A stretch of 64,000 nucleotides of DNA from Spirochaetales bacterium. GTDB taxonomy: Bacteria > Spirochaetota > Spirochaetia > UBA9216. The position numbers and the translations under genes are program-made. Where the stretch lies: contig JAEKNX010000005.1 of the NCBI GenBank assembly GCA_016839055.1, positions 124,001-188,000 of the forward strand. The letters are read 5' to 3'. The notes below the pieces were generated by a model. That model did no database searches, had not been told where the DNA came from, and saw nothing but the letters and a program-made list of their open reading frames with translations. This document shows positions 14,851 through 30,394 of this stretch, piece by piece. The first letter of the stretch is position 1. Every line of letters begins with the position of its first letter.

Positions 14851-15468
14851 ATGGACTACAAGACAATAAACGCTGAAATAAGAACTGAGTTAAGAAAAAG
14901 CGCAGCAAAAAAAATGAGAACTGAAGGTAGAATTCCTGCTGTTATTTATGGGCATAATGATCCAATGAATATATCCGTAGATGCGAAGGAATTTTCAAAG
15001 AAATTTGAGAAGATTTCTGAAAATACAATAATTACAATAGCAATCGGTAAAGATAGTTATAGTGTTCTTGTGAAGGATTTTCAGGATGATATCCTTACTT
15101 CAAAGATTCAGCATATCGATTTCTTTGAGATTGAGAAAGGCAAGACACTTAAAACAAATGTTCCTATACATATCGAAGGTTCAGCTAAGGGTGTTCGTGA
15201 AGGTGGTGTTCTCGAGCAGAGACTTCATGAGCTTGAGGTTGAATGTCTTCCAACGGATATTCCTGAGATAATTACAATTGATGTATCCCATCTTGAGGCA
15301 GGCGACGCTATTCATGTTGCTGATATAGAAATTCCCAAGGGAGTTAAAGTTCTCAATATGCTTGAGCAGACAGTTGTCTCGGTAACTCTCGTGAGAGAAG
15401 AAGTTGAAGAGGATATCGAAGAAGAACTATCAGAAGGTGAAGTTGCTGGAGAAGTCAGCGAAAAATAA
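14851..15468 (+). CDS. rplY: 50S ribosomal protein L25 (general stress protein CTC type)
   Basis: 205 residues: an N-terminal 5S-rRNA-binding L25 domain (RKSAAKKMRTEGRIPAVIYG) and a C-terminal TL5/CTC beta domain (DIPEIITIDVSHLEAGDAIH), ending in an acidic tail. The ATG at 14851 is chosen over one 21 bases upstream because AAAGGAG precedes it. The 3' end overlaps pth. Confidence 0.95.
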   Translation: MDYKTINAEIRTELRKSAAKKMRTEGRIPAVIYGHNDPMNISVDAKEFSKKFEKISENTIITIAIGKDSYSVLVKDFQDDILTSKIQHIDFFEIEKGKTLKTNVPIHIEGSAKGVREGGVLEQRLHELEVECLPTDIPEIITIDVSHLEAGDAIHVADIEIPKGVKVLNMLEQTVVSVTLVREEVEEDIEEELSEGEVAGEVSEK

Positions 15469-16045
15469 ACCAGTTCTACTATTCATCGGTTTAGGAAATC
15501 CGGATTATAAATATCGCAAAACCAGGCATAATGCCGGTTTTGCGGTAATTGATTCTCTATCTGAAGCCTGCGGAGCAAAATTAAAAAAATCTTTTTTAAA
15601 ACCCTGCCTTATCGCGACTGTTTGCCTTGAAGATTATACTTTATATCTGGTTGAACCTCTTACCTACATGAATAGATCCGGTGATGTCCTGAATTATGTT
15701 TTTCGCAAGACCGGTGTCGGCGTAGATGAAATGATAATTATATGTGACAATATGGATCTCAAACCGGGGATGATAAGGCTTAAGAGTAAAGGCTCGAGCG
15801 CCGGACATAACGGTATAAAATCCGTGATAGATAATCTTGGAAGAGCGGATTTTAAAAGGTTGTATATTGGTGTCGGACGGCCGGCCGATGGAATGACAGT
15901 CATAGAGCATGTGCTCGGAGAGTTTGAACAGGAAGAAGAAACCGAGTTTCTCGGCTCTGTAGAAAAGGCGGCCGGTGCCTTGATGAGCTTAACGAAGAAC
16001 CCGCTTCATCTGGTAATGAATGAAATCAACAAGAAAAATAATTGA
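15443..16045 (+). CDS. pth: Peptidyl-tRNA hydrolase
   Basis: About 200 residues. Pth motifs are FIGLGNPDYKYRKTRHNAGF (including the catalytic His region), PLTYMNRSG, and CDNMDLKPGMIRLK with KSSAGHNGIKS. It recycles tRNA from stalled peptidyl-tRNA. The start is probably TTG at 15443, with GAAGG just upstream and 26 bases inside rplY; no ATG fits. Confidence 0.93.
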   Translation: MLEKSAKNKPVLLFIGLGNPDYKYRKTRHNAGFAVIDSLSEACGAKLKKSFLKPCLIATVCLEDYTLYLVEPLTYMNRSGDVLNYVFRKTGVGVDEMIIICDNMDLKPGMIRLKSKGSSAGHNGIKSVIDNLGRADFKRLYIGVGRPADGMTVIEHVLGEFEQEEETEFLGSVEKAAGALMSLTKNPLHLVMNEINKKNN

Positions 16046-17420
16046 AGAAGCAGTAAATAACTATCTTATAGAATATCAAATCCAAGAGAAAGCCGTTATC
16101 ATAGCCGCGTTCTCAGGCGGATCTGACTCCACAGCTCTTGTATCCATACTATCGGGTATGAAGGGGGCGAAACTCAAAATAATCTGTGCATATTATAACC
16201 ACAATCTCAGGAATGGATCTAAGCTTGAGTGCGAGCTTGAAATAGTCAGGAAATTCGCTGATGCAAACGGTTTAATATTGAAAACAGGTTGTGCGGGGGC
16301 TGGAGTCATCGAAGACTATGCCTCGAAGCATAATCAGAGTATCGAGGAAGCCGCCCGAAATAAACGTTACGAATTCCTTGAAAAGGTCAGATTGGAGTGC
16401 TGCGCTGATTATATAGCGACAGGACATCACCTGGATGACAATGCCGAGACTGTTCTCATGAGGTTTCTTCAGAACTCCGGGGTGGCCGGATTGTCGGGGA
16501 TACCCAGGCAAAGAGATAAAATAATCAGGCCGCTAATAGAAGTGCCAAAGAAGCTTCTGGATGATTTAATTAAAGAAGAAGGAATGAGCTGCAGCAGGGA
16601 CGAGACAAATGATCAGCAGATCTTCCTCAGGAACAGGCTGAGGCATGTTCTAATTCCCTCAATCAGGGAGATTTTCCCTGAATTCGATCATAATATGTCA
16701 GGCTTGTCGGAAAAAGTACGGATGTATAATTCTTTTATTAATGAAGAAGCAGAAAAAAGGCTGAACTGGACTGAAATAGACGGAGGCTGGAAGCTAAGCA
16801 GTAAAAAACTGTTTGAGCAGCATCTGCTGCTCAGAATCCATTCTGTTTACGGAAGGATAAACAGGCTTCAGAATGAAAAGCAGAGAATAAAATTCCATGC
16901 ACTCGAGCGAGCGCTCAGCGGAGACGGCGTACAGAACGGCAAGGTTCTGTTTAAGACCGGAAAATTTGAAGTTATCAGCAGGAATGACTGTATTTTGGTT
17001 CGTAGTCTTGTAAATCACACTAAAAAAAGTTATCTTTTATCCTTACAACCTGATATTAAATATAAGGTTCATGGTCAGATTTTTCAGATTTTTTACGAAT
17101 CTGGGGAAGTCCAGCCCGGAGGAGAGCAGGTTTCAATTGCTGTTATAAGCCCTTTGATAGCCCGGTCCTTCCGTGAGGGTGATTGGATAAGAATGAAAGA
17201 CGGCAGCAAGAGTGTTAAGAAACTGCTGAGCGAATGGAAAGTTTGCACAGATGACAGACAGCTGATACCGATTGTAGAGGATACTGATGGTATAGCAGCG
17301 GTGATAGGTAGTCATCTGGGCTATGAAGATAAGACTGCCTACGGCAGAAATATAACCGGAAAAAAACAGAAAAGAGTGCTGTTGAGGTTTAATACGGTGA
17401 CGGAGACAACAAGTGAGTGA
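16020..17420 (+). CDS. tilS: tRNA(Ile)-lysidine synthase
   Basis: 466 residues. The N-terminal PP-loop AAFSGGSDSTALV binds ATP, ATGHHLDDNAETVLMRFLQ is the family motif, and C-terminal TilS domains with SFREGDWIRMKDG follow. It converts C34 of the CAU-anticodon tRNA-Ile to lysidine. It overlaps both pth and ftsH by a few bases. The pth-tilS-ftsH order is widely conserved. Confidence 0.94.
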   Translation: MKSTRKIIEEAVNNYLIEYQIQEKAVIIAAFSGGSDSTALVSILSGMKGAKLKIICAYYNHNLRNGSKLECELEIVRKFADANGLILKTGCAGAGVIEDYASKHNQSIEEAARNKRYEFLEKVRLECCADYIATGHHLDDNAETVLMRFLQNSGVAGLSGIPRQRDKIIRPLIEVPKKLLDDLIKEEGMSCSRDETNDQQIFLRNRLRHVLIPSIREIFPEFDHNMSGLSEKVRMYNSFINEEAEKRLNWTEIDGGWKLSSKKLFEQHLLLRIHSVYGRINRLQNEKQRIKFHALERALSGDGVQNGKVLFKTGKFEVISRNDCILVRSLVNHTKKSYLLSLQPDIKYKVHGQIFQIFYESGEVQPGGEQVSIAVISPLIARSFREGDWIRMKDGSKSVKKLLSEWKVCTDDRQLIPIVEDTDGIAAVIGSHLGYEDKTAYGRNITGKKQKRVLLRFNTVTETTSE

Positions 17421-19290
17421 TCAAAACAATAATAAAAAACCAGAGAAAGACTCTAAAGGTAATTCAGGATTTGACCTGAACAACAACAATAAATTCGCAT
17501 TATTTTTTCTTCTTGCGCTTATTGTAATGTTTTTTGTTCTTTTTTTAGCTAATGATAATAATGATGTCATGGAAATCCCGTATTCGACATTCCTGAATTA
17601 TCTTGAAAACGAACAGGTTACTGCGGTAAAGATAATCGATAACAAGACGGTACAGGGAACTATGCGCGGAACGTCGGGACAGAGCACTGTCTTTGAAACT
17701 GCTATTCCTTATTTTGATGATTTTCTTATGAAGAAGCTCAGGGAAAATAATGTAATTATCGAAGGTGCGGAACGCAGTACGTCAGCGGCGGCAATTTTTA
17801 TCCAGATTATTCCCTGGGTTATCGGATTCGCGTTTATCTGGTTCATGCTCAGGCAGATGCAGGGCGGCGGGAATAAGGCTTTTTCCTTCGGCAAGAGCAA
17901 GGCGAAAAGGTATACGCAGAGCGACAAGCATATAACCTTTGATGATGTCGCAGGCCAGGCTGAGGCGAAGTATGAACTTCAAGAAGTAGTAGACTTTCTG
18001 AAGAACCCGGAGAAATTTCAAAAGCTCGGAGCGCGAGTTCCGAAGGGCGTGCTGCTTGTTGGTATGCCGGGAACCGGAAAGACTCTACTTGCCAAGGCTG
18101 CAGCTGGTGAAGCTGGTGTTAACTTTTTTCATATGTCCGGTTCGGACTTTGTTGAGATGTTTGTCGGTGTCGGTGCCAGCAGGGTTCGTGATCTCTTCGA
18201 GCAGGGCCGTAAAAATGCGCCGTGCATACTTTTTATAGATGAGCTTGATGCGGTTGGCCGAACCCGAGGCGCCGGTTACGGCGGTGGCCATGATGAGCGT
18301 GAACAGACTCTTAACCAGATGCTGGTAGAGATGGATGGTTTCGATACGAAGGACGGAGTAATTCTTCTGGCTGCTACAAACCGACCTGATGTCCTTGACC
18401 CCGCGCTGCTTCGGCCCGGCAGATTCGATCGTCAAGTAGTAGTCGATATGCCTGATAATAATGAACGGAAGGCCATCCTTGAAATACATGCCCAGAAGGT
18501 TCAGCTGGAGGATGATGTTGATCTTGAAAGAATTGCAAGAGCGACGCCAGGAACCTCTGGAGCGGATCTTGCGAACCTCGTAAACGAAGCCGCACTATTT
18601 GCAGGCAGGCAAGGCAGAGACAAGGTTTCAGGCCAGAATTTCGAGGAAGCAAGAGACAAGCTTCTGCTTGGAGTAGCCCGAAAATCAAGATTAATCTCAC
18701 CTGAAGAGAAAGAGGCGACAGCCTATCATGAAGCCGGTCACGCGCTGCTTCATTATCATCTTGATGATGCTGATCCTCTGCATAAGGTTACTGTTATTCC
18801 ACACGGTCAGGCTCTCGGCCTTGCCATATCACTTCCTGAGAAAGATTCATACTCAAAACGGAAAGGCTGGCTTAAGGCTAGAATAATAATTGCAATGGGC
18901 GGCTATGTTGCCGAAAAATTAAAATACGGTGAAACAACCACAGGTACAAAAAACGACATCGAGCAGGCCACAGGCCTTGCCCGGAAAATGGTAATGGAAT
19001 GGGGCATGTCTGAGGCATTAGGATTCATTTCTTTCGGGTCTGAAGACGAACCGATTTTTCTTGGAAAGGAAATTTCTCAGCATAAAGATTATTCTGAAGA
19101 TACTGCAATGCGGATTGATAATGAAATTACTAATATCATGAGAGAATGTCTTGATGTGACTGAGAAAATTCTGATTGAGAACCGTGAACAGCTGACTATT
19201 ATTGCTGAAGCCCTCATCGAAGAGGAAACTCTCGATGATGACAGGATACGAGTACTCCTTGATCTTCCCCCGGCTGTCAGAAACTACTGA
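17413..19290 (+). CDS. ftsH: ATP-dependent zinc metalloprotease FtsH
   Basis: 625 residues, GTG start inside the tilS end. Two membrane segments (about 28-46 and 126-146) enclose the periplasmic loop. The AAA domain has Walker A GMPGTGKT (217-224), Walker [11 protein letters not shown] (271-280) and the second-region-of-homology arginines in LRPGRFDR. The zinc site is HEAGH (439-443). It degrades membrane and regulatory proteins. Confidence 0.97.
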
Positions 19291-19343
19291 TAATCCGTAT
19301 TATAAATAGTTAATCTTTATCAGCAAACATGATACAGAAATAG

Positions 19344-19374
19344 CCCCCTTTGAACCGATAATCTTTGAGGGGGG
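19344..19374 (+). promoter_or_regulatory. Hairpin that can sequester a ribosome binding site
   Basis: CCCCCTT (19344-19350) can pair with GAGGGGG within 19367-19374, the G-rich Shine-Dalgarno located three bases before the ATG at 19378. The loop is about 16 bases. Pairing would hide the ribosome binding site, so translation may be conditional. Confidence 0.4.
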
Positions 19375-19377
19375 TAT

Positions 19378-21051
19378 ATGAGAAATAAAATACGGCTTGT
19401 ACTGATCATATGTGCCCTGTTTGTTTTTGTTTCAGATATATTTTCAAGTGAAACAGTTGACAGACAGATAGGCATAATCTATATAAAAAATGCTGTCGCA
19501 AAATACCTTCTCGGTGAATACAATGACTCAGTCGATCTTCTTGATAAGGCTGAAGAGTTCTATTCTACTTCTTCCGATTTCTCATATTTGAACGGCTTAA
19601 TTAGGCTTGAACGTGATAATAATATAAATACCGCTTCGAAATATTTCAAGGAAGCGCTTGATTCCGATGACTGGCTTCTGCTTGAACGTAGGAAGTGTCT
19701 CTCAGATCTTGCCTTGTTATTGTTCAGGAAAAAAGAGTATGAGCAGATTATTTCAATGATAGATACAGGCTCCTTTCCTGATTACAGAGAAAATGATTTA
19801 ATGTATCTGTATCTGCTGAGTTTGAAATATACCGGTAATAATGATGTGTACCAGAATAATCTGAGACGGAGTATTAAAAGATACGCGGAAGATTATCGTT
19901 TTGCCGCATTGTATCTAAAGGTAAGCGGTCAGTATAAGCGGGAAATACTCGAGCGAATTCATTCATTTAAAAACAGCGCCGGGGCGCTTGATGTTTTTCT
20001 AAAAGCTGTTCTGACCCTCGAGGACGGTCCGGGTAAAATCCGGAAACTTGAAGAGTACTTTAATGATAACGGGAAGGAAATAGAAGCTTTTATCGAATAT
20101 TATCGTCTGACAGGCACTATAACGGAAGGGGAGCTGAAAAGACTGTTTTCGGAAGGAGTTTTCGAAAATCCGCAGCTCGGGAAAAAACTTGGTGAGATAC
20201 TCCCTACCGAAGCTCTGAGGAGCTTATACAGGGAAGCTGTTGAAATGTATACCGGCAATGTTTATTATGATTTAAATGATGACGGATATTTTGAAGAACT
20301 TCATCTATATGATAACGGCAAACCAGCCGGAATAAGTATAGATTCCAATCAGGATGGAGTTCTCGAAAAAATGATATTTTTTGAGAACGGGATTCCGAAA
20401 GAGTTGATAATAACAGAAGAAACCTTTATGCGAATAAATTTCCGAAAATATCCTTTTGTCGATGAAGTAAGCAATGCCCTTAGCGATAAGATGAATGTTT
20501 ACACCTTTCTGATAAACTCAGTAGCGCTGGATTTTTACCACGACGTCGGCGGGGGCGAGAGGGCCGTCATTGATGATGCCCGGATAAAAGATTTTGTTTC
20601 AGGAATTGATGAACAACGGGATAATGTTTTAAAAATTGCTTCATATACCGGCGGTGACCGGAAAGACAGCTTCACCTTTCTTGAAGAGGAATGGGAAAGA
20701 CAGGATGAATACAGTTCCATTCTGAGAATTTATAATAAACTCAAGGGTAATTTTGTATATCTTAATAGATTTGAGATGAGGATAGCAGGCTTCGGAGATA
20801 TTGATTATGACCGCCTTGTCGATATAAAAGAAGCTTATTCAAATGGTATCCTCATATCAATAGAAGCTGATGAGAATAAGAACGGAATATATGATTATAA
20901 GCTCAGTCTCGAGAATAGCGAGAGCGTATCGCTCTGGGATTTTAATGAAGATGGTATTTATGACTGCAAGCAATATATAAAAGATGGTATAATTACTACT
21001 GAATACTCATCAGCTTTGGACGGTGTGTTTAATATAATTGAGAGGAATTGA
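19378..21051 (+). CDS. Secreted TPR protein with Ca-loop-like repeats
   Basis: 557 residues. A signal peptide (IRLVLIICALFVFVSDIFSSE) is followed by about 250 residues of TPR-like helices (YLLGEYNDSVDLLDKAEEFY). Then come acidic loops resembling dockerin/EF-hand calcium loops: DLNDDGYFEE, DSNQDGVLEK, DENKNGIYDY and DFNEDGIYDC. The pattern fits an exported scaffold. It is separated by three bases from the HtrA-like lipoprotein gene and so may work with it. Confidence 0.75.
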   Translation: MRNKIRLVLIICALFVFVSDIFSSETVDRQIGIIYIKNAVAKYLLGEYNDSVDLLDKAEEFYSTSSDFSYLNGLIRLERDNNINTASKYFKEALDSDDWLLLERRKCLSDLALLLFRKKEYEQIISMIDTGSFPDYRENDLMYLYLLSLKYTGNNDVYQNNLRRSIKRYAEDYRFAALYLKVSGQYKREILERIHSFKNSAGALDVFLKAVLTLEDGPGKIRKLEEYFNDNGKEIEAFIEYYRLTGTITEGELKRLFSEGVFENPQLGKKLGEILPTEALRSLYREAVEMYTGNVYYDLNDDGYFEELHLYDNGKPAGISIDSNQDGVLEKMIFFENGIPKELIITEETFMRINFRKYPFVDEVSNALSDKMNVYTFLINSVALDFYHDVGGGERAVIDDARIKDFVSGIDEQRDNVLKIASYTGGDRKDSFTFLEEEWERQDEYSSILRIYNKLKGNFVYLNRFEMRIAGFGDIDYDRLVDIKEAYSNGILISIEADENKNGIYDYKLSLENSESVSLWDFNEDGIYDCKQYIKDGIITTEYSSALDGVFNIIERN

Positions 21052-21054
21052 TTC

Positions 21055-22854
21055 ATGAGCAGGAAAATTTTACCTTATCTCATTATTGGATTATTATTGT
21101 GCTGTATTATCTCATGTGAGAGCGTAAGTGAAGTCGAACCTTATACGCCGGAATACAATGATGTGGTTTTTCTAAAGATAGAGCAGTTAATGAATCAAAA
21201 TGATCCTGAAAGAGTTCTTCATATCATCAACAGCCTGAGTCTCTACGCGGAAAATGACGGTTTATATATGGAAAAAATAAAAAGTATAAGGCAGCCCGCA
21301 ACAGAAAAATTGATTGAGAAGCTTGATGAGGCAATAGGTCTTAAGGAGTATCTCGAAGCCGCAGAAATTGTGAAATCAATTATGGCGGCAGGTTTGAGTA
21401 CTGATTATAAGCTTGAGACAATGTATTTAAAATACGTAATTAAGAACATTGCCGATGGAAATATAACCCCGGCTCTGGCGGAATTTCAGGATAGAATAAT
21501 TACCAGTGAGTCCGGATTAAACTTGACTGATGAAGAGGCTGAATTAATATTTGATGCCGCGGTCGTCAGTAGGAATAGGGCTGTCCTCTCGTATCTGAAG
21601 CGGAACAGCCAGTGGCTTAATGGCGAGCGGAAAGAAATTATTGATAATATTATTGATGAAAAGATAAGTACTAATTTAATGATAAGTGGAACTGTTACTG
21701 TTCATGTGAACAGGGGCATTAAACTTGAGCGGGGCATGGGGTATCCTGACCGCGTAATCGGCAGCGGTTTCTACATAGACCAACGCGGATATATTCTAAC
21801 CAATTACCATGTAATTTCGAGTGAAGTTGATCCCGAATACGAAGGTTTTTCCAGACTGTATGTTAAATTTGACGAGGATGATTCAAAAATTCCGGCCGAG
21901 GTGGTGGGTTGGGATGCTTCTCTGGATATAGCGCTTTTAAAAGTTGAATATCAGCCTGAGTTTATATACGGCTTTCCTTTAGACCGTGAATATATTCCAG
22001 GCGAAGAAATATATGCCATAGGTTCTCCGGGCGGACTCGCGAAAACTATAACATCAGGGATAATCTCAGCTTCGGCAGACAGGAGGCTTCTGCCCCTTGG
22101 CGATACTATCCAGGTTGACGTGCCAATAAACAGCGGAAACAGCGGCGGACCTGTTATTGACAAGAGCGGAAATCTAATAGGTGTTGTGTTTGCCGGCATC
22201 GAACAGTTTGAAGGAGTTAATTTTATAATTCCTGCGAAATGGATTCGTCACAGCATCTCTGAGCTGTATAAACCGGGAAAGAACAGGCAGTCATGGCTGG
22301 GGCTGACGGTTCATGAGAGTCGCGAGGGGCTTGAGGTCTTATATGTGATGCCAGATACCTCCTGTTATAAGGCCGGAATTCGTCAAGGTGACAAGATCTT
22401 GAGTATCGATGGACAAGCTGTTCTGATGATCGAAGAGGCTCAGGAAATCGTCCTTAGGAAAAGACCAGGAACTCTTCTGCAGATGGTTGTTAACAGTGAC
22501 AGCGTGGAATATTCCCATCTTCTGGTTGTCGAGGAGAGGGCAGATCTGCCGATGAAGAAAGCTCTTGAGATTGATAGCAGGAAAAATCTGCTGCCGTCCT
22601 TCTTCGGTATGAGGGTTGAGACGGGTGAGCAAACGTTTTTTAATCAGGACTATATTATAACCGAAATTTATCAGGGAATGAGCGCGGATGAAATAGGGCT
22701 CTCAGTAAATGATCCATTCACCCTTGTTAACTGGCAGATTGATAAAGAGCAGGAAATAATTATTGCCAGGCTCAGAATAAAAAAACGGAAAGCAGGTTTT
22801 CTGAAATCCGAAATACAGATGGGGAATAAAATAGATATAACAAATACAATATGA
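21055..22854 (+). CDS. HtrA/DegP-like lipoprotein serine protease
   Basis: 599 residues. A lipoprotein signal ends at Cys21 (CCIISC). A helical domain (about 35-205) precedes a trypsin-like domain with His252 (TNYHVIS), Asp291 (SLDIALLK) and Ser363 (GNSGGPV). A PDZ domain follows (WLGLTV...AGIRQGDKILSIDG), then a degenerate second PDZ-like part. All three catalytic residues are present. Its stop overlaps the kinase start (ATGA), suggesting an envelope-sensing role. Confidence 0.88.
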   Translation: MSRKILPYLIIGLLLCCIISCESVSEVEPYTPEYNDVVFLKIEQLMNQNDPERVLHIINSLSLYAENDGLYMEKIKSIRQPATEKLIEKLDEAIGLKEYLEAAEIVKSIMAAGLSTDYKLETMYLKYVIKNIADGNITPALAEFQDRIITSESGLNLTDEEAELIFDAAVVSRNRAVLSYLKRNSQWLNGERKEIIDNIIDEKISTNLMISGTVTVHVNRGIKLERGMGYPDRVIGSGFYIDQRGYILTNYHVISSEVDPEYEGFSRLYVKFDEDDSKIPAEVVGWDASLDIALLKVEYQPEFIYGFPLDREYIPGEEIYAIGSPGGLAKTITSGIISASADRRLLPLGDTIQVDVPINSGNSGGPVIDKSGNLIGVVFAGIEQFEGVNFIIPAKWIRHSISELYKPGKNRQSWLGLTVHESREGLEVLYVMPDTSCYKAGIRQGDKILSIDGQAVLMIEEAQEIVLRKRPGTLLQMVVNSDSVEYSHLLVVEERADLPMKKALEIDSRKNLLPSFFGMRVETGEQTFFNQDYIITEIYQGMSADEIGLSVNDPFTLVNWQIDKEQEIIIARLRIKKRKAGFLKSEIQMGNKIDITNTI

Positions 22855-24623
22855 AAAAAATAAAAGTATTAATTGTTGAAGATGAAAGTATACTCTCAAT
22901 GGATATGACTCAGAGTCTTGAGACTATGGGGTATGAGGTAATAGACGCGGTTCCCTCCGGTGAGGAAGCAATAATGCTTCTCAAGGAAGAAGAAACTGAT
23001 CTCATCCTGATGGACGTACAACTCGCCGGAGTGCTGGATGGTATACAGGCTGCGGAATTGATAAATAAAGACCATAATATACCAATAATCTACATATCCG
23101 GCCATACCGATGAGCTGACTCTGTCCAGAGCGAAAATTACAGGACCCTACGGATACATCACGAAATCATTCAACTATGATGAGTTGAATACCACAATGGA
23201 AATGGTCGTTTACAAGAATGAACTGCAGCGGAAAGTGGCGGAAAATGAATACCTTCTTGATGCCACCCTTGATAATATCGAAGATGCGGTGATCACCGTA
23301 GATACTGAGGGATATATCATGTATTTGAACTCTTCCGCGGCAAGAATGATGAGAATAAACAAGGCAGACGCATCAAATATCAAAATCGACAGAATTGGAA
23401 TAATTTGGAAAAATGAGAGTGGAAAAGAATTTGTCCATCCATATAAGACGCAGAGAAAAAAAAGACTAAAAACTACTGAATATGTCATGATAAACAAGGC
23501 TGCCGGGACATCACTTGTGGTCGAGTGTACAGTAAACATTCTATACGGTGACAAAAACAAAATCAGGGGCTATGTTTACCTGATTAAAAACATCGAAGAG
23601 AGAAAGAAAATTGCGGCCATTCAGTCAAGACTCGCGTCAATTGTTGAATCATCTCAAGATGCTATAGTCGGAATAGACACAGGAGGAATTATCAACAGCT
23701 GGAACAGCGGCGCTGAAAAAATTCTAGGTTATAACTCTACCGAAGTCATAGGCTACAATATAAGCATGCTTACGCCGTCAAATTATCCAAATGAACTTCC
23801 TGAAAAGATAGATCAGCTTAAGAAAGGGCTGTCGGCGTCACATTATGAGAGTATCAGGCAGAAGAAAAACGGAGAAATGATAGAAATGTCAATTTTAACA
23901 TCTCCGATAATCGACAGAAAGGGAAACATGACGGGAGTCTCCTTTATCGCTCGTGATATAACTGAAAAGAAAAAGCTTGAGAAAGAAATAATAGAAATTG
24001 GTGAGAAGGAAAGAGAAAGGATCGGGCAGGATCTCCATGATAGTCTAGGGCAGCAGCTTACGGGCGTTCTTCTCAATGTAAAGTCCCTTGAAAATGAAGT
24101 CCGGGAACAATGCCCGACGCTGCTCGTAGATATGGTTATTAAAACCAAAGATCTCATAAAAGATGCTATCGCGCAGACAAGACAGCTTGCTAAGAACCTC
24201 GTGCCTATCATGCTGCAGACAGAAGGTCTGCAGCATGCACTAATCGATCTGGCAAATTATGCAGAAACTGTCTATAAAAAAGAAGTAGAGATGATTATTG
24301 ATCATGAAATCACAGATATAAATACAATTACCGAGACTCAGCTTTATCATATAGCCCAGGAAGCGGTGAATAATGCCGTAAAGCATGCTGATGGCAGCAA
24401 GATATATATTTCTCTAAAAAATGTCCAGTCTGAACTTGTGCTGTCAATTAAGGATAACGGTAAGGGGATCTCTAAAAATCATGTCGAAGGCCTTGGTATG
24501 AGAATTATGAATTACAGGGCTAATCTGATAAACGGATCTATTTATATTCATACTGAAGAGAACGAGGGGACTCTTGTACTGTGCAGGGTTCCTATGAAGA
24601 CGGCGGAGATGGATACTTTATGA
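22851..24623 (+). CDS. Hybrid sensor histidine kinase (REC-PAS-PAS-HisKA_3)
   Basis: 590 residues without membrane segments. An N-terminal receiver domain has phospho-acceptor Asp55 (LILMDVQLAG). Two PAS domains lie near 130-250 and 258-375 (GWNSGAEKILGY-type motif). A HisKA_3 dimerisation helix carries His396 in GQDLHDSLGQQL, and an HATPase domain has EAVNNAVKHA and DNGKG. It is NarX/DegS-like and most likely phosphorylates the regulator encoded next. It overlaps both neighbours by ATGA junctions. Confidence 0.93.
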   Translation: MKKIKVLIVEDESILSMDMTQSLETMGYEVIDAVPSGEEAIMLLKEEETDLILMDVQLAGVLDGIQAAELINKDHNIPIIYISGHTDELTLSRAKITGPYGYITKSFNYDELNTTMEMVVYKNELQRKVAENEYLLDATLDNIEDAVITVDTEGYIMYLNSSAARMMRINKADASNIKIDRIGIIWKNESGKEFVHPYKTQRKKRLKTTEYVMINKAAGTSLVVECTVNILYGDKNKIRGYVYLIKNIEERKKIAAIQSRLASIVESSQDAIVGIDTGGIINSWNSGAEKILGYNSTEVIGYNISMLTPSNYPNELPEKIDQLKKGLSASHYESIRQKKNGEMIEMSILTSPIIDRKGNMTGVSFIARDITEKKKLEKEIIEIGEKERERIGQDLHDSLGQQLTGVLLNVKSLENEVREQCPTLLVDMVIKTKDLIKDAIAQTRQLAKNLVPIMLQTEGLQHALIDLANYAETVYKKEVEMIIDHEITDINTITETQLYHIAQEAVNNAVKHADGSKIYISLKNVQSELVLSIKDNGKGISKNHVEGLGMRIMNYRANLINGSIYIHTEENEGTLVLCRVPMKTAEMDTL

Positions 24624-25270
24624 AAAGAATTGTCATAGTTGATGATCATCCTATAGTGAGAGAAGGCTTTGCGAAGCTGATAAATTCCGAGCATGATTTT
24701 GAGGTGGTTGGTACTGCCGAAGATGCGAATGAGGCTATAGAGATTATTCAGAAAGAAAAACCTGATATTGCGATGGTTGACCTGTCGCTTCGGGACAGCA
24801 GCGGAATAGAGCTTGTTAAGGATCTACAGGGATTATGTCCGAATGTTAAGGTTCTCGTAGTTTCCCTTCATGATGAAGAACTCTATGCTGAGAGGGTTCT
24901 CAGGGCAGGCGCGAGGGGCTTTATTATGAAGGCGGAAGCTGTCGATGACATTATAACGGCGGTTAAGAAGGTGGCCAGGGGTGAGATCTATCTAAGCGAC
25001 CGAATGCAATCCAAAATGATTGAGATGATGGCATCAGGCAGGCGTAAAGAAAGTATTAACCTCCTCGATATTCTGAGTGACCGTGAACTTGAGGTCTTTC
25101 AGCTTGTCGGAAACGGAATGAAAACGAAAAATATAGCAGACCAGCTTAATTTAAGCATAAAAACTATTGAAACCTACAAGTCGCATCTTAAAATAAAACT
25201 CCAGCTGAAAGACGGGATTGAATTGATTCAGAGGGCTGTTGAATGGAATATGAAACAAAACCTCAGGTGA
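24620..25270 (+). CDS. NarL/FixJ-type response regulator
   Basis: 216 residues: receiver domain with acidic pair DDH and Asp54 (AMVDLSLRD), and a C-terminal LuxR-type helix-turn-helix (LSDRELEVFQLVGNG...NLSIKTIETYKSHLK). The ATG at 24620 overlaps the kinase stop. It is the output of the four-gene operon; its targets are unknown. Confidence 0.94.
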   Translation: MKRIVIVDDHPIVREGFAKLINSEHDFEVVGTAEDANEAIEIIQKEKPDIAMVDLSLRDSSGIELVKDLQGLCPNVKVLVVSLHDEELYAERVLRAGARGFIMKAEAVDDIITAVKKVARGEIYLSDRMQSKMIEMMASGRRKESINLLDILSDRELEVFQLVGNGMKTKNIADQLNLSIKTIETYKSHLKIKLQLKDGIELIQRAVEWNMKQNLR

Positions 25271-25291
25271 GCTGGATTAGGCTGCTTGTGC

Positions 25292-25319
25292 TTGATTTTA
25301 GTCTTTAAATAATTATAAT
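25292..25319 (+). promoter_or_regulatory. lepA promoter
   Basis: TTGATT (25292-25297), 16-base spacer, TATAAT (25314-25319), then a leader of about 45 bases with AAGGAG before the lepA ATG. Confidence 0.6.
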
Positions 25320-25372
25320 ATTACATTACCAACCTTAATATAGAGCAGAACATACCCAAGGAGTTCTCGTAG

Positions 25373-27175
25373 ATGAGTAAAGCCAAGAATATAAGAAATT
25401 TTTGTATAATCGCACATATTGACCACGGAAAGTCTACACTTGCCGACAGATTCATCGAGAAAGCCATGATAATATCGGAGAGAGATTACAAAGATCAGAT
25501 TCTTGATAGTATGGATATTGAACGTGAAAGAGGCATCACTATTAAGTCACAGGCTGTTACTATACCCTATACTGGAAAAGACGGCACCGTATATGAGCTG
25601 AATCTTGTTGATACTCCGGGCCATGTGGATTTCTCATATGAAGTCTCCCGGGCAATATCATCATGTGAAGGAGCTCTGCTGCTCATAGATGCCAGCCAGG
25701 GGGTTGAAGCCCAGACTCTGGCCAATTTATATATGGCACTCGAGCAGGATCTTGAAATCATCCCTGTTATAAATAAGATTGATCTTCCGAGCGCGGATAT
25801 CCCTCTGGTAAAGCATCAGATTGATAACGAGCTGGGCCTTGATTCTGATATGGTAAGCCTCGTGTCAGCAAAGACCGGCGAAGGTGTTTCCGAATTGTTC
25901 GAAGCGATTGTTAAGTATATACCGGCTCCGGTCGGCAAGCCGGATGCTCCTCTTAAGGCTCTGATATTTGATTCTCACTATGATCCTTACCGGGGTGTTA
26001 TTGTTCATATCAGAGTCTTTGAAGGAACCCTCAAGAGCGGTGATATTATAAAGCTGTTTGCGAATAATACGTCCTACAAGGTAGAGGAAACAGGAATTTT
26101 CAGAGTTGTACTTGAAAAAACAGGGAAACTTTCAGCAGGCGATGTCGGATATTTCATTGCCGGGATAAAGACTATTTCGGATATCCGGGTAGGTGATACT
26201 GTTACGACCGAGAAAAACCCCAGCAAGGAAGCGCTGGCAGGGTACAGGGAAGTAAAACCTGTTGTCTTTTCCTCAATATATCCCGTTGATTCAAATGATT
26301 ATAATGAGCTTCTTACAGCGATTGAAAAACTGAAACTAAACGACGCCTCCCTCATCTATGAAAAAGATGCATCGGCCGCCCTCGGTTTCGGGTTCAGATG
26401 CGGCTTCCTCGGAATGCTGCACCTTGAGGTGGTTCAGGAGAGACTCGAAAGAGAATTTGATCTGTCTATAGTGCTTACGGCCCCGTCGGTAGCATATAAT
26501 CTCGTAATGACAACAGGGGAGAAGGTTGTTCTGGATAATCCGTCCGAATACCCGGAGCCGATGAAAATAACCTCAACATTTGAGCCCTATATCAAGGCTG
26601 AAATAATCTGTCCGCAGAATTTTATCGGCCCGATAATCAATCTCTGTCTTGAAAAACGAGGCGTTCAGAAGTCTCTTACTTACCTCGATGAAAAGAGGGT
26701 AGAGCTTGTTTATGAAATGCCGCTCGCGGAGGTCCTTTTTGAGTTCTATGACAGGCTCAAGTCAATCAGCAAAGGTTATGCTTCCTTTGATTATAATATG
26801 ATAGATTATCGTGCCACAGATCTCGTGAAACTTGAAATAATGATTAATGGTGAGAGGGTTGATGCTCTTGCCCAGCTTGTTTTCCGGGATAATGCCGCCT
26901 CACGAGGCAAGAATGCCTGTAGGAGACTAAAAGAAGAAATACCGCGTCATCAGTTTAAGATTGCCATCCAGGGTTCAATAGGGTCAAATATTATTGCAAG
27001 AGAGACAATCTCTGCGCTTCGGAAAGATGTTACCGCGAAATGTTACGGCGGAGACATCTCGCGAAAGAGAAAACTTCTCGAAAAGCAGAAGGAAGGAAAG
27101 AAGCGCCTCAAGATGGTTGGAAATGTAGAACTGCCGCAGAAGGCTTTTTTATCGGTACTGAAAACAGATAACTAA
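25373..27175 (+). CDS. lepA: Elongation factor 4 (back-translocase)
   Basis: 600 residues. G1 AHIDHGKSTLADRF, G2 RERGITIKSQAV, G3 DTPGHVDFSYEV and G4 NKIDLPSA are present, followed by the EF-G-like domains and the LepA-specific C-terminus with GKNACRRLKEEIPRHQFKIA and GGDISRKRKLLEKQKEGKK. Single-gene unit that converges with the DUF115 gene ten bases downstream. Confidence 0.97.
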   Translation: MSKAKNIRNFCIIAHIDHGKSTLADRFIEKAMIISERDYKDQILDSMDIERERGITIKSQAVTIPYTGKDGTVYELNLVDTPGHVDFSYEVSRAISSCEGALLLIDASQGVEAQTLANLYMALEQDLEIIPVINKIDLPSADIPLVKHQIDNELGLDSDMVSLVSAKTGEGVSELFEAIVKYIPAPVGKPDAPLKALIFDSHYDPYRGVIVHIRVFEGTLKSGDIIKLFANNTSYKVEETGIFRVVLEKTGKLSAGDVGYFIAGIKTISDIRVGDTVTTEKNPSKEALAGYREVKPVVFSSIYPVDSNDYNELLTAIEKLKLNDASLIYEKDASAALGFGFRCGFLGMLHLEVVQERLEREFDLSIVLTAPSVAYNLVMTTGEKVVLDNPSEYPEPMKITSTFEPYIKAEIICPQNFIGPIINLCLEKRGVQKSLTYLDEKRVELVYEMPLAEVLFEFYDRLKSISKGYASFDYNMIDYRATDLVKLEIMINGERVDALAQLVFRDNAASRGKNACRRLKEEIPRHQFKIAIQGSIGSNIIARETISALRKDVTAKCYGGDISRKRKLLEKQKEGKKRLKMVGNVELPQKAFLSVLKTDN

Positions 27176-27185
27176 GTAAGTTGTC

Positions 27186-28838
27186 TTAATTTAATCCGGT
27201 GATGGCCTGCTGAATTATTTTCTTAAACCATGACGCGGAAAAAAGCAGCCTTTTCAGAAAGCTTACATCCGCAGCCGGATTGTAATAATCAGGAAAGAAC
27301 AGATGGGTGTAGTCTATCTGTTTTATCTGGGTCTTAAGCTCTTCAGGGAGCTTGAGACCGCTTTTGTCCTCGTTTGCGCTGTTTAGGTATGCTATTACCG
27401 CCGTTATTACTTTTTCAATTTTTATAATTTCTTTATCAAGAAATACGGCTGTCTTATCCTGGTTCTTAAATAAAGTTGTCCCATCAAGCCGGAAAATATT
27501 ATCAGCCTCATTCACATGGATTTTATCTGCAGAACAGAAGGTCTCGACAAGCTCTAAAATTGCATCAGGCTCGGTAAGACGTTTCTCGGTAGATTTAATT
27601 CCATATTCGGCGATATCAACAAGCCTGGAGGAAAGACGTCCTAGCTCACCAAGCTGCCCGGCATAGGAGAGCATGATGAGATCGGTAAATACCGTTCTTC
27701 CGCTCTTTCCTGTTCTCGTGACGCGGTTACCGTTGAATGCGGAACTGAAAAATCCGGCTTTGTTGGTTCGGGTTTCCTTCATCATCGAGATGATATGGCT
27801 CGGGGAGCCTGATGAGTGGTATTTGTCGGGGATGAATGAAAAATCAAGACCACAATGCAGGACAATGTTATTGCTGATGCAAAGCGCTATATAGACCGCG
27901 GCGATGCCTACGGATCCAAGCGGAGGAATAAGCGGGGGCAGGAGTCCTTCATTCTTTAAGGATGTAAGGAACTGAGTCCTGTCAAATTCGGAGATGAAAA
28001 AATATTTTTTGCCCTGATGTTTTCGAATTACCTCGGGAGAGGATGTTAAATCGAAGGCGGCCGGGATTCTTAAGGCTTCAGGATCATAAAAATCATAAAG
28101 GTTCGCGTGCTGCGCTTCGAGAACAATCAGAAGATCAGGAGTAATGCCGTTATTGAGAAGGGTCGATACGGCCGTGTCGGCAGCGGCCAGGAAGAAGGTG
28201 TTGCGGTTAGCCTTTATGAACGAGATACAACCGTCCAGAGATTCGCCCGCACCGATGGCAATAACAGGTTTATCCGTATGAAGCTCTGACAGTGAGCGGG
28301 TAAGGCCGAGCAAGGGCAGGTTTAGAAAGATGTTTCTACACCAGAGCCTGCCCATGTGGATGGTCGTTATCCTGTTTTTCCAAAAAGACTGAAGAAAGTT
28401 TTCGGCGGCTGAAGCAAATGAATTATAGAAGCCGCGGTTCAGCATATAACCGCCGTTGAGCTTTACTGTGACAACCCGCCTGAATCTTGAAGGGTTCATC
28501 GCTCTGATTATATTCGATGGCGAGGAATTATTGCCAGTATATAAATAGCTGATACTGCGGTTATTTAGAGGTGTAAAAAATTCTTCGGTAAGCTTATATA
28601 TATCAGGATTTTTCTCGATAGCAAGGACGAATGAATCAGGACTTATCCGCTCAAGAAGTGTTTCTACCCCTGTAAACAATAATGGCGATAAGACCAGATA
28701 AAGCGTCTGAGAAGCCGCTGCTGCTTGCTCAGCGCGCTTTATCGGATTATTGGAGGCAGAATACAGTACTCTTCCGTTAAGGCTTATATTCGGCCCCTCA
28801 GGGCCGTTAATAAGTTCGGGAAGAGCTCTGGAAACCAT
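27186..28838 (-). CDS. DUF115 / MptE-like protein
   Basis: 550 residues. The central part has VIAIGAGESLDGCISFIK, FFLAADTAVSTLLNNGITPDL and the PPLGSVGIAAVYIALCISNN segment characteristic of the PF01973 (MptE-like, DUF115) family. In bacteria such proteins often belong to Maf-type flagellin glycosylation systems; no flagellin genes are nearby. The parvulin gene lies two bases upstream, so both are co-transcribed. The role is inferred from family only. Confidence 0.8.
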   Translation of the reverse strand: MVSRALPELINGPEGPNISLNGRVLYSASNNPIKRAEQAAAASQTLYLVLSPLLFTGVETLLERISPDSFVLAIEKNPDIYKLTEEFFTPLNNRSISYLYTGNNSSPSNIIRAMNPSRFRRVVTVKLNGGYMLNRGFYNSFASAAENFLQSFWKNRITTIHMGRLWCRNIFLNLPLLGLTRSLSELHTDKPVIAIGAGESLDGCISFIKANRNTFFLAAADTAVSTLLNNGITPDLLIVLEAQHANLYDFYDPEALRIPAAFDLTSSPEVIRKHQGKKYFFISEFDRTQFLTSLKNEGLLPPLIPPLGSVGIAAVYIALCISNNIVLHCGLDFSFIPDKYHSSGSPSHIISMMKETRTNKAGFFSSAFNGNRVTRTGKSGRTVFTDLIMLSYAGQLGELGRLSSRLVDIAEYGIKSTEKRLTEPDAILELVETFCSADKIHVNEADNIFRLDGTTLFKNQDKTAVFLDKEIIKIEKVITAVIAYLNSANEDKSGLKLPEELKTQIKQIDYTHLFFPDYYNPAADVSFLKRLLFSASWFKKIIQQAITGLN

Positions 28839-28840
28839 CT

Positions 28841-30394
28841 TTAGTTAGAGATGAAGATTCTCGCGAATGCCGCACCGAAATTATCATTAAATTTATCGGA
28901 CTGGAAGATGAACTCTTTAAGCTGATTTCCCTGCCAGTTCTGTGAGGCATAACTGATAAGGGGAGCTACTGAAGAAAGCTCTTCAGTATTTTTTTCGGTA
29001 GTCTCTATCAGCTGAATAACAACAACGTTATCATTAATGATAATAGGTTCTGAAACCTCATTTTCTGCTAAGGCATTTATCGATTTAAGGAAAAACTCAT
29101 TGGTATTAACTCCGGAGAGGCTTGTGTCCTCGTCGGCTGAACTAACCTGGGTGTATACAGAGATGCTTTGCCCATAATAGTTGACTGAAGGGTTACCATA
29201 GACGATAGGAAAGGAAATAGTGTCGTGAATACTGACATCAGAATCAGCTGATGCGCTGAGGAAGCCCTCTGTTTTCGCGAATTCTGCGAAATTACCGGCC
29301 TGCTTGACTAGATAATCTTCAATGACGCCTTTTTCGAATCTTTCCATATATTCTTTAACAACTTGAATATCTGCATCTATGGACATATCGGAGTATTCCG
29401 CCTTTTTGTCGCAGCGATAGATAACCCAAGTTCCGTCATCTTCGATGATGCTGCTGATTTCACCAGTGTCTAGCGCGAATATCTCATCCAGAGCTGTACC
29501 ATTATTGATGAAGTTTTTAAGTTCATAATAGTATCTAGAACCCATTTCTCCGCCCTTATCAGCATAAGGATCTGAGGACTGTGTTTTTGCCATTTCTGTA
29601 AACACTGCAGGATCCTGTTCGAGTTTTGACAGAATCTGTTCCGCATCTTTTTTGTCGGACTTAACGGTAATCTTGCTTATAATAATCTTCCTGAAAAGAT
29701 CGGCATTATGACTACCGAAGGAAGCTATATTGTCAGAGGGAAAGTCGGAGAAGGGGAATACCGCATAGCGGAATTTTTTCTCTGTTGATGCTAAATTCTG
29801 AAAGAACTTTTCCTCATTCTTATTTATCTTGTATGAATTGGAATCAATGAGGAACTGATTGTAGTAAAGTTCTTCCTCAAATTTCTTTCTCGTACTTTTC
29901 TTTTCAATATTGGAGCTCTGTGAATAAAGGTTTTCACTGAATTCGCCATTTTCCATGTAGGGGCCGTAAGTCACAATTGCCTTGTCGACTGCAGTGCCGG
30001 GGATGTGTACACCGCTGTTCCGGAGTTCTTTTATTACCGCCGTACGGAATACTGTATTGTCAAACGCGGTACGCCAGACTTGATACTGGATGAACTGCGC
30101 ATTCTGATCGGTTATGGAATCTCTGTAATCTTCAGCTATCGCGTTAACCTGATCCGAGAAAAAGGATCCCTCAGTATATACAATTTCTTCGCCGTCATAT
30201 GAGCCGAATGCAGTATTGCCCGTTGAGCCGATTTTTCCTGCAACTGGAGCACCGACAAAGGTCACAACAATAACAACAAGGATAATTAGACTGACTGTCC
30301 ACATTACTGGTCTGTTCGATTTACGCTTCTCTGCTGCTTCTACATTTTCAATCTTAACTTTCTGATTTTTACGTCTCTGATCTCTGGATGCCAT
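28841..30394 (-). CDS. Membrane-anchored parvulin-type peptidyl-prolyl isomerase
   Basis: 517 residues. A basic cytoplasmic N-terminus and one membrane segment (VSLIILVVIVVTFVGAPVAG) are followed by a SurA/PpiD-like helical region, then a PpiC domain: FTEMAKTQSSDPYADKGGEMG and LDTGEISSIIEDDGTWVIYR. It probably assists folding of exported proteins. AAGGA lies before the ATG. Confidence 0.85.
   Translation of the reverse strand: MASRDQRRKNQKVKIENVEAAEKRKSNRPVMWTVSLIILVVIVVTFVGAPVAGKIGSTGNTAFGSYDGEEIVYTEGSFFSDQVNAIAEDYRDSITDQNAQFIQYQVWRTAFDNTVFRTAVIKELRNSGVHIPGTAVDKAIVTYGPYMENGEFSENLYSQSSNIEKKSTRKKFEEELYYNQFLIDSNSYKINKNEEKFFQNLASTEKKFRYAVFPFSDFPSDNIASFGSHNADLFRKIIISKITVKSDKKDAEQILSKLEQDPAVFTEMAKTQSSDPYADKGGEMGSRYYYELKNFINNGTALDEIFALDTGEISSIIEDDGTWVIYRCDKKAEYSDMSIDADIQVVKEYMERFEKGVIEDYLVKQAGNFAEFAKTEGFLSASADSDVSIHDTISFPIVYGNPSVNYYGQSISVYTQVSSADEDTSLSGVNTNEFFLKSINALAENEVSEPIIINDNVVVIQLIETTEKNTEELSSVAPLISYASQNWQGNQLKEFIFQSDKFNDNFGAAFARIFISN

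Follow-up and report, generated by a model that had tools for sequence, protein, structure and literature searches.

A conserved TPR–HtrA gene pair of Spirochaetota and the changing signalling genes found between htrA and lepA

We analysed a stretch of 64,000 nucleotides from a Spirochaetales bacterium (contig JAEKNX010000005.1, positions 124,001 to 188,000), hereafter the window. Four adjoining genes on its forward strand encode a secreted tetratricopeptide repeat (TPR) protein, an HtrA-type protease, a hybrid histidine kinase, and a NarL/FixJ-type response regulator. A sequence-only reading of this DNA had taken them as one signalling unit that reports envelope or calcium status. Comparison with relatives favors a different view. 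The locus probably consists of two joined units: a conserved periplasmic proteostasis pair (TPR and HtrA) and exchangeable downstream signalling genes, placed in a slot between htrA and lepA. Behind the pair, the slot can be empty, hold Che-type genes, or hold the kinase and regulator. For this reason, the set of four genes seems to be a later assembly rather than a single old machine. It means that a supposed four-gene system becomes an assembly with a history, made of an old protease–partner pair and a slot with contents that change between families.

The TPR–HtrA pair is old and conserved, and it is usually located behind ftsH. The sample comprised 73 loci, the window and 72 fetched ones, mapped by BLAST and profiles. 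We chose them among the genomes with a match (154, and five more), mostly one or a few per genus. HtrA was detected in 61 of the 73 TPR loci. The nearest annotated neighbour upstream of the TPR gene was ftsH in 57 loci and tilS in 11, and five had none. Outside the class, seven loci were selected, which represent 7 of the 22 genomes with a match there (L085, counted among the 73, and L146 to L151). HtrA directly follows TPR in six of these seven, although L148 shows just a fragment of it at the contig end, matched with 22 bits. No HtrA was found in L151. As far as this sample goes, the pair is older than the class. Four of the same loci (L085, L146, L148, and L149) present a protein of 446-449 residues between ftsH and TPR. 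In L149, the one scanned, Pfam identifies it as a phosphoglucomutase/phosphomannomutase.

A fusion of TPR and HtrA was considered for L041 and L064, which have a long HtrA open reading frame (ORF). It was discarded: the TPR match lies in a separate ORF in both, and no ORF carries the two labels.

The TPR gene (19378..21051, plus strand) encodes a protein with a single N-terminal hydrophobic stretch, judged by hydropathy only; its C-terminal half bears calcium-loop motifs resembling those of EF-hands. Four loops of the form D-x-[DN]-x-[DN]-G lie at residues 298, 322, 498, and 521. All 73 TPR proteins contain such loops, 230 in total, against a mean of 2.3 and a maximum of 7 in 200 shuffles. The 61 HtrA proteins, used as a comparison set, have none. 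Of 18 TPR family members, one matches EF-hand_5 and one Dockerin_1, with E values no higher than 0.01. The family profile finds lanmodulin (E 2.4e-4). Compared with structures, the first half of the profile matches TPR structures, and weak matches to EF-hand proteins appear near the end. In the window protein, the sole TPR-like match given by Pfam is ARM_TT21_N, below its cut-off; TPR_14 is matched by 8 of the 18 members. A protein search found relatives in 87 of 392 genomes of the phylum (E 1e-3), and in all seven genomes searched within the window's family. The family profile (A1), built from 18 of the 73 counted proteins, matches 154 of the 392 (E 1e-8). In this search, as in that with the kinase profile below, at most three candidates were scored per genome. 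The curated libraries Pfam and NCBIfam gave no name for this protein. It would probably serve HtrA as an adaptor, or hold substrates for it, and be stabilized by calcium.

The htrA gene (21055..22854, plus strand) encodes a serine protease of HtrA type. Pfam recognizes Trypsin_2 (PF13365, 100 bits) and a single PDZ (PF00595, 44.5 bits) at residues 410-479. The catalytic triad H252, D291, and S363 is intact in 61 of 61 proteins. The lipobox cysteine, Cys21, is conserved in 58 of these 61, and in the window it lies behind the one N-terminal hydrophobic stretch (hydropathy 2.14 from residue 5), so the protein is a probable lipoprotein. Its N-terminal part is helical; in a poor structure model, only this part reaches predicted local distance difference test (pLDDT) values of about 56-80. 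The model TIGR02037 (DegP/HtrA/Do) gives 166.8 bits, below the cut-off of 416.2. Therefore, we class the protein as HtrA-type and not as DegP, DegQ, or DegS. It shares with them Trypsin_2 and PDZ, and TIGR02037 matches 15 of 15 members. However, it differs from them as a probable lipoprotein with a helical N-terminal part and, by Pfam, one PDZ stretch. PADLOC matches were confined to protease domains and covered their models only in part. Probably lipid-anchored, HtrA would form with the secreted TPR protein a periplasmic quality-control pair, usually encoded behind the gene of the membrane protease FtsH.

The kinase gene (22851..24623, plus strand) encodes a soluble hybrid kinase with the order REC-PAS-PAS-HisKA_3-HATPase_c. 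Pfam finds Response_reg, two PAS stretches, HisKA_3 (PF07730, 46.2 bits), and HATPase_c (PF02518, 56.6 bits), with no periplasmic sensor domain among its matches. Among the best 25 of 128 NCBIfam models, TIGR00229, a model of the PAS domain, is alone in exceeding its cut-off. The regulator (24620..25270, plus strand) contains Response_reg and the GerE helix-turn-helix domain. Hydropathy reveals no hydrophobic stretch in either protein, and no 19-residue window of the kinase exceeds 1.6. The residues H396, D397, Q401, and the receiver D55 are invariant in eight of eight kinases, two of which are near copies. Likewise, D54 and K104 are kept in seven of seven regulators. The kinase most likely autophosphorylates on H396 and would then pass the phosphate to D54 of the regulator, as gene order and gene kind suggest. 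Its activity would be tuned by the PAS domains and by the N-terminal receiver, whose D55 would take its phosphate from another kinase. The kinase would be a cytosolic sensor.

The start of the regulator is the ATG at 24620. A longer ORF, with GTG from 24581, is unsupported: in L031, L052, L042, and L044 the longest regulator ORF has 216 amino acids and begins at the place equivalent to this ATG.

The TPR and htrA genes are separated by a 3-base gap, and ATGA overlaps join htrA to the kinase and the kinase to the regulator. The sequence-only reading had given this layout, and the coordinates agree with it. Its description of the products held as well. The TPR protein has its N-terminal hydrophobic stretch and its calcium-loop-like repeats, the HtrA-like protein, a probable lipoprotein, keeps its triad, and the hybrid kinase with an N-terminal receiver is cytosolic by hydropathy and stands next to a NarL-type regulator. 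This coupling gives shared dosage. Nevertheless, it does not follow from coupling that the kinase senses the periplasm.

The behaviour of the slot separates the two units. The kinase and regulator occur in the fetched stretch of 8 of the 73 loci (window, L031, L036, L042, L044, L052, L054, and L055), all from families f1, f15, and f20. Of the 65 loci without them, L053, L056, and L058 stop at or inside the HtrA position and are uninformative. The two genes directly follow HtrA in six of the eight; in L036 and L044, they are placed behind STAS-CheA-CheR-CheB. The order TPR-HtrA-kinase-regulator is kept in five of five scoreable loci of the window's family, f1 (six were fetched, of which L053 stops within HtrA), and likewise in the single f15 locus. 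The f20 row reads STAS-CheA-CheR-CheB-HK-RR-RecHK2-RecX-lepA, where HK and RR are the kinase and regulator, and STAS, CheA, CheR, and CheB were assigned by Pfam. We use RecX, RecX2, RecX3, and RecHK2 as names for the hybrid kinases that served as references; seven of these slot kinases were scanned with Pfam. In G392, a genome of f1, a kinase of RecX type still lies behind HK-RR. CheA is present in 16 of the 73 loci, and a lone hybrid kinase in L038. The stretch fetched first extends to lepA in 36 loci; 11 of these show a recognised signalling gene in the slot, and the other 25 show none. Family f3, with 20 of the 73 loci, supplies about half of those without a signalling gene before lepA. Among the 37 loci that do not reach lepA, 16 show a signalling gene, although one of them, L062, does so through a weak 55-bit receiver match.

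The slot kinase is the best match to the window's kinase in eight of eight searched genomes of the f1/f15/f20 clade. A search with a kinase profile (A3) gives 41 of 392 genomes at the 1e-60 threshold. The top five (G000, G374, G370, G376, and G256) score 448-936 bits and the next 323 bits; these high scores come partly by construction, because the profile contains those five. All five have the kinase in the slot.

These results bear on whether the four genes are one signalling unit, as the sequence-only reading had proposed. In that case, TPR and HtrA would sense the envelope or calcium state, and the kinase and regulator would report it via a membrane go-between. The order kept in f1 and f15 speaks for it. 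So do the strong conservation of the calcium loops and the recognised slot contents, which are signalling genes in several arrangements. An HtrA beside a two-component system is, moreover, a known stress arrangement (PMC3062566). On the other hand, the genes separate in most relatives, the outcome that the sequence-only reading had itself named as refuting: 65 of 73 loci show no kinase and regulator after the pair (three of them end too early), Che genes intervene in two of the eight that have them, and the slot lacks signalling genes in most loci that reach lepA. Furthermore, since the kinase has neither membrane segment nor periplasmic domain, no path is evident by which it could report envelope or calcium status. 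The proposal is supported in part, and we consider a single unit quite unlikely.

A broader form of this idea has a similarly small chance. The TPR protein and HtrA might serve generally as a periplasmic input stage gated by calcium. Different lineages would have coupled their own outputs to it in the one slot, whether a CheA-type array, a hybrid kinase of RecX type, or the REC-PAS-PAS-HisKA_3/NarL pair, and these would have been exchanged over time. If the pair did feed any slot kinase, there would be a link between proteolysis in the periplasm and signalling of chemotaxis type. Even otherwise, the calcium-loop TPR partner, seen in all 73 loci examined, is a conserved periplasmic protein without a curated name beside HtrA.

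Another explanation is hitch-hiking. Here the slot would be a site ahead of lepA where insertions are tolerated, and transcription would be all that the kinase and regulator share with the pair. The many slot arrangements, often empty, agree with this, and unrecognised ORFs also occupy the slot (orf442 in L060 and orf487 in L106). Tight spacing is also ordinary in the window: measured between longest-ORF ends, the distance is at most 10 bases for 19 of 37 neighbours on the same strand. However, the CheA lineage was retained in the slot over several families, and every scoreable locus of f1, f15, and f20 keeps the kinase and regulator. We consider plain hitch-hiking unlikely.

To follow the changes of the slot, we used a tree of ftsH, tilS, rplY, and lepA for 33 of the 73 rows, chosen by us. 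Families f1, f15, and f20 form a single clade (Shimodaira-Hasegawa-like approximate likelihood ratio test, SH-aLRT, 98), which FastTree also recovered for 68 of the 73 rows, there with no support value given. On the 33-row tree, the presence of the kinase and regulator changes once, and the presence of Che five times. In four f1 genomes (G000, G374, G392, and G394), the protein that best matches the CheA of the f20 slot over the full length is 48-53 percent identical to it and is encoded elsewhere in the genome. STAS, CheR, CheB, and CheY adjoin CheA in these displaced clusters. The displaced f1 CheA proteins and the one from the f20 slot form a group (SH-aLRT 95). In the window genome, the cluster (L141:2029-15101, contig C17) also has CheD and MCP, and an extracytoplasmic function (ECF) sigma factor and a VWA/YfbK-type protein are nearby. 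As f20 carries both blocks and a related Che cluster is found elsewhere in four f1 genomes, the direct contact between HtrA and the kinase probably followed the departure of Che. The likely course would be a single entry of the kinase and regulator, beside a Che-type cluster already in the slot, in the common ancestor of f1, f15, and f20. Then, in f1, the Che cluster would have moved elsewhere in the genome, leaving HtrA and the kinase as neighbours with translational coupling.

Several points weigh against two joined units with this history. The pair is not obligatory, since 12 of the 73 TPR loci have no detected HtrA, one of them (L056) owing to the contig end. The slot was seen only in part in 37 of the 73 loci, because their stretches stop before lepA. 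Some deep forks of the slot-history tree are open, and the change counts cannot separate gain from loss. In G393, G256, and G329, in or near the clade, CheA matches are only partial. The Che cluster could also have duplicated before its loss from the slot. Finally, two single-sequence structure models were poor (mean pLDDT 42.6 and 41.2).

The loci other than L056 in which no HtrA was detected behind TPR are L039, L047, L050, L057, L061, L063, L066, L069, L070, L088, and L093.

The sequence-only reading knew of no described system with this composition. Our literature search found no paper on this locus, which is no proof of absence. Nevertheless, an HtrA-like protease beside a two-component system is already described, and the locus is a variation on this arrangement. 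In mycobacteria, PepD is encoded immediately downstream of mprAB and is directly regulated by MprAB, in the context of envelope stress, according to PMC3062566. A phosphorylation-mimicking MprA of Corynebacterium glutamicum is reported to bind the htrA promoter (PMC12113857). As in the window, the gene of an HtrA-like envelope protease adjoins two-component genes in MprAB-PepD (PMC3062566). However, MprB is presented there as a cell-membrane marker (PMC3062566), whereas the window kinase has no membrane segment and begins with a receiver. The GerE-domain regulator, the TPR partner with calcium loops, and ftsH are further differences. Since the kinase is not membrane-bound, we do not file the locus as a member of the MprAB-PepD type.

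Other systems share single traits with it. CssRS with HtrA/HtrB, described for secretion stress, is likewise a two-component system tied to HtrA proteases. EupR of Chromohalobacter salexigens and its proposed kinase combine a NarL-type regulator with a hybrid PAS kinase (PMC2964678). The receiver of that kinase, as described there, is C-terminal, with twelve predicted membrane helices, and its gene is three genes away (PMC2964678). Kinases of the NarX, NarQ, UhpB, and LiaS kind, neighbours in NCBIfam, resemble the window's by HisKA_3 and a NarL-type partner. They differ from it in that the window kinase has the receiver first, two PAS, and no membrane segment.

A terminator-like hairpin lies between ftsH and TPR (19343..19375, plus strand), found with RNA folds. 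Its C-rich arm pairs with a G-rich 3' arm that includes the likely ribosome-binding site of TPR, and it ends two bases before the ATG. It folds in four of five genus members, with z-scores of -3.1 to -3.4 in three relatives and -1.63 in the window. In three of the four, a T run extends from the hairpin to the start codon; the window lacks it. The fifth member, G396, has no 5' arm. This hairpin hints that the unit is controlled separately from ftsH in the genus.

Such control would fit a feedback role, in which the kinase and regulator respond to a cytosolic cue and control their own locus or the ftsH-htrA proteostasis genes. Translational coupling and a DNA-binding regulator of NarL type agree with this. 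However, the hairpin, weak in the window and absent from G396, has no tie to the regulator. We rate this role as unlikely, and two joined units as the probable reading.

The letters of the hairpin loop prove little, because CCGATAAT is over-represented across the whole window (9 observed vs 2.65) and the related count in other loci has no control. This count concerns CCGATAA, which occurs within 75 bases upstream of the matched start of TPR in 9 of 73 loci, five of them outside the genus. The nine are the window, L031, L035, L047, L052, L053, L054, L081, and L094. The pattern of loop plus 3' arm occurs twice in the window's own genome and in none of six relatives, which says little given that their arms are spaced differently. 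A sigma-28 promoter in the loop, considered for its -10 core, was rejected by eye for its spacing and its misfit at -35.

Rfam gave zero matches across window positions 15000-29000. The right border of the slot is lepA (25373..27175, plus strand; TIGR01393, 991 bits, cut-off 533.9). After it, at 27186-30394 on the minus strand, the window has an MptE-like protein (PF01973) and a neighbour with no NCBIfam match at 1e-10; this oppositely oriented arrangement follows lepA in many loci. On the other side is ftsH (17413..19290, plus strand), assigned by Peptidase_M41, AAA, and FtsH_ext of Pfam. Upstream of it are ispE, rplY, pth, and tilS, each above its curated NCBIfam cut-off.

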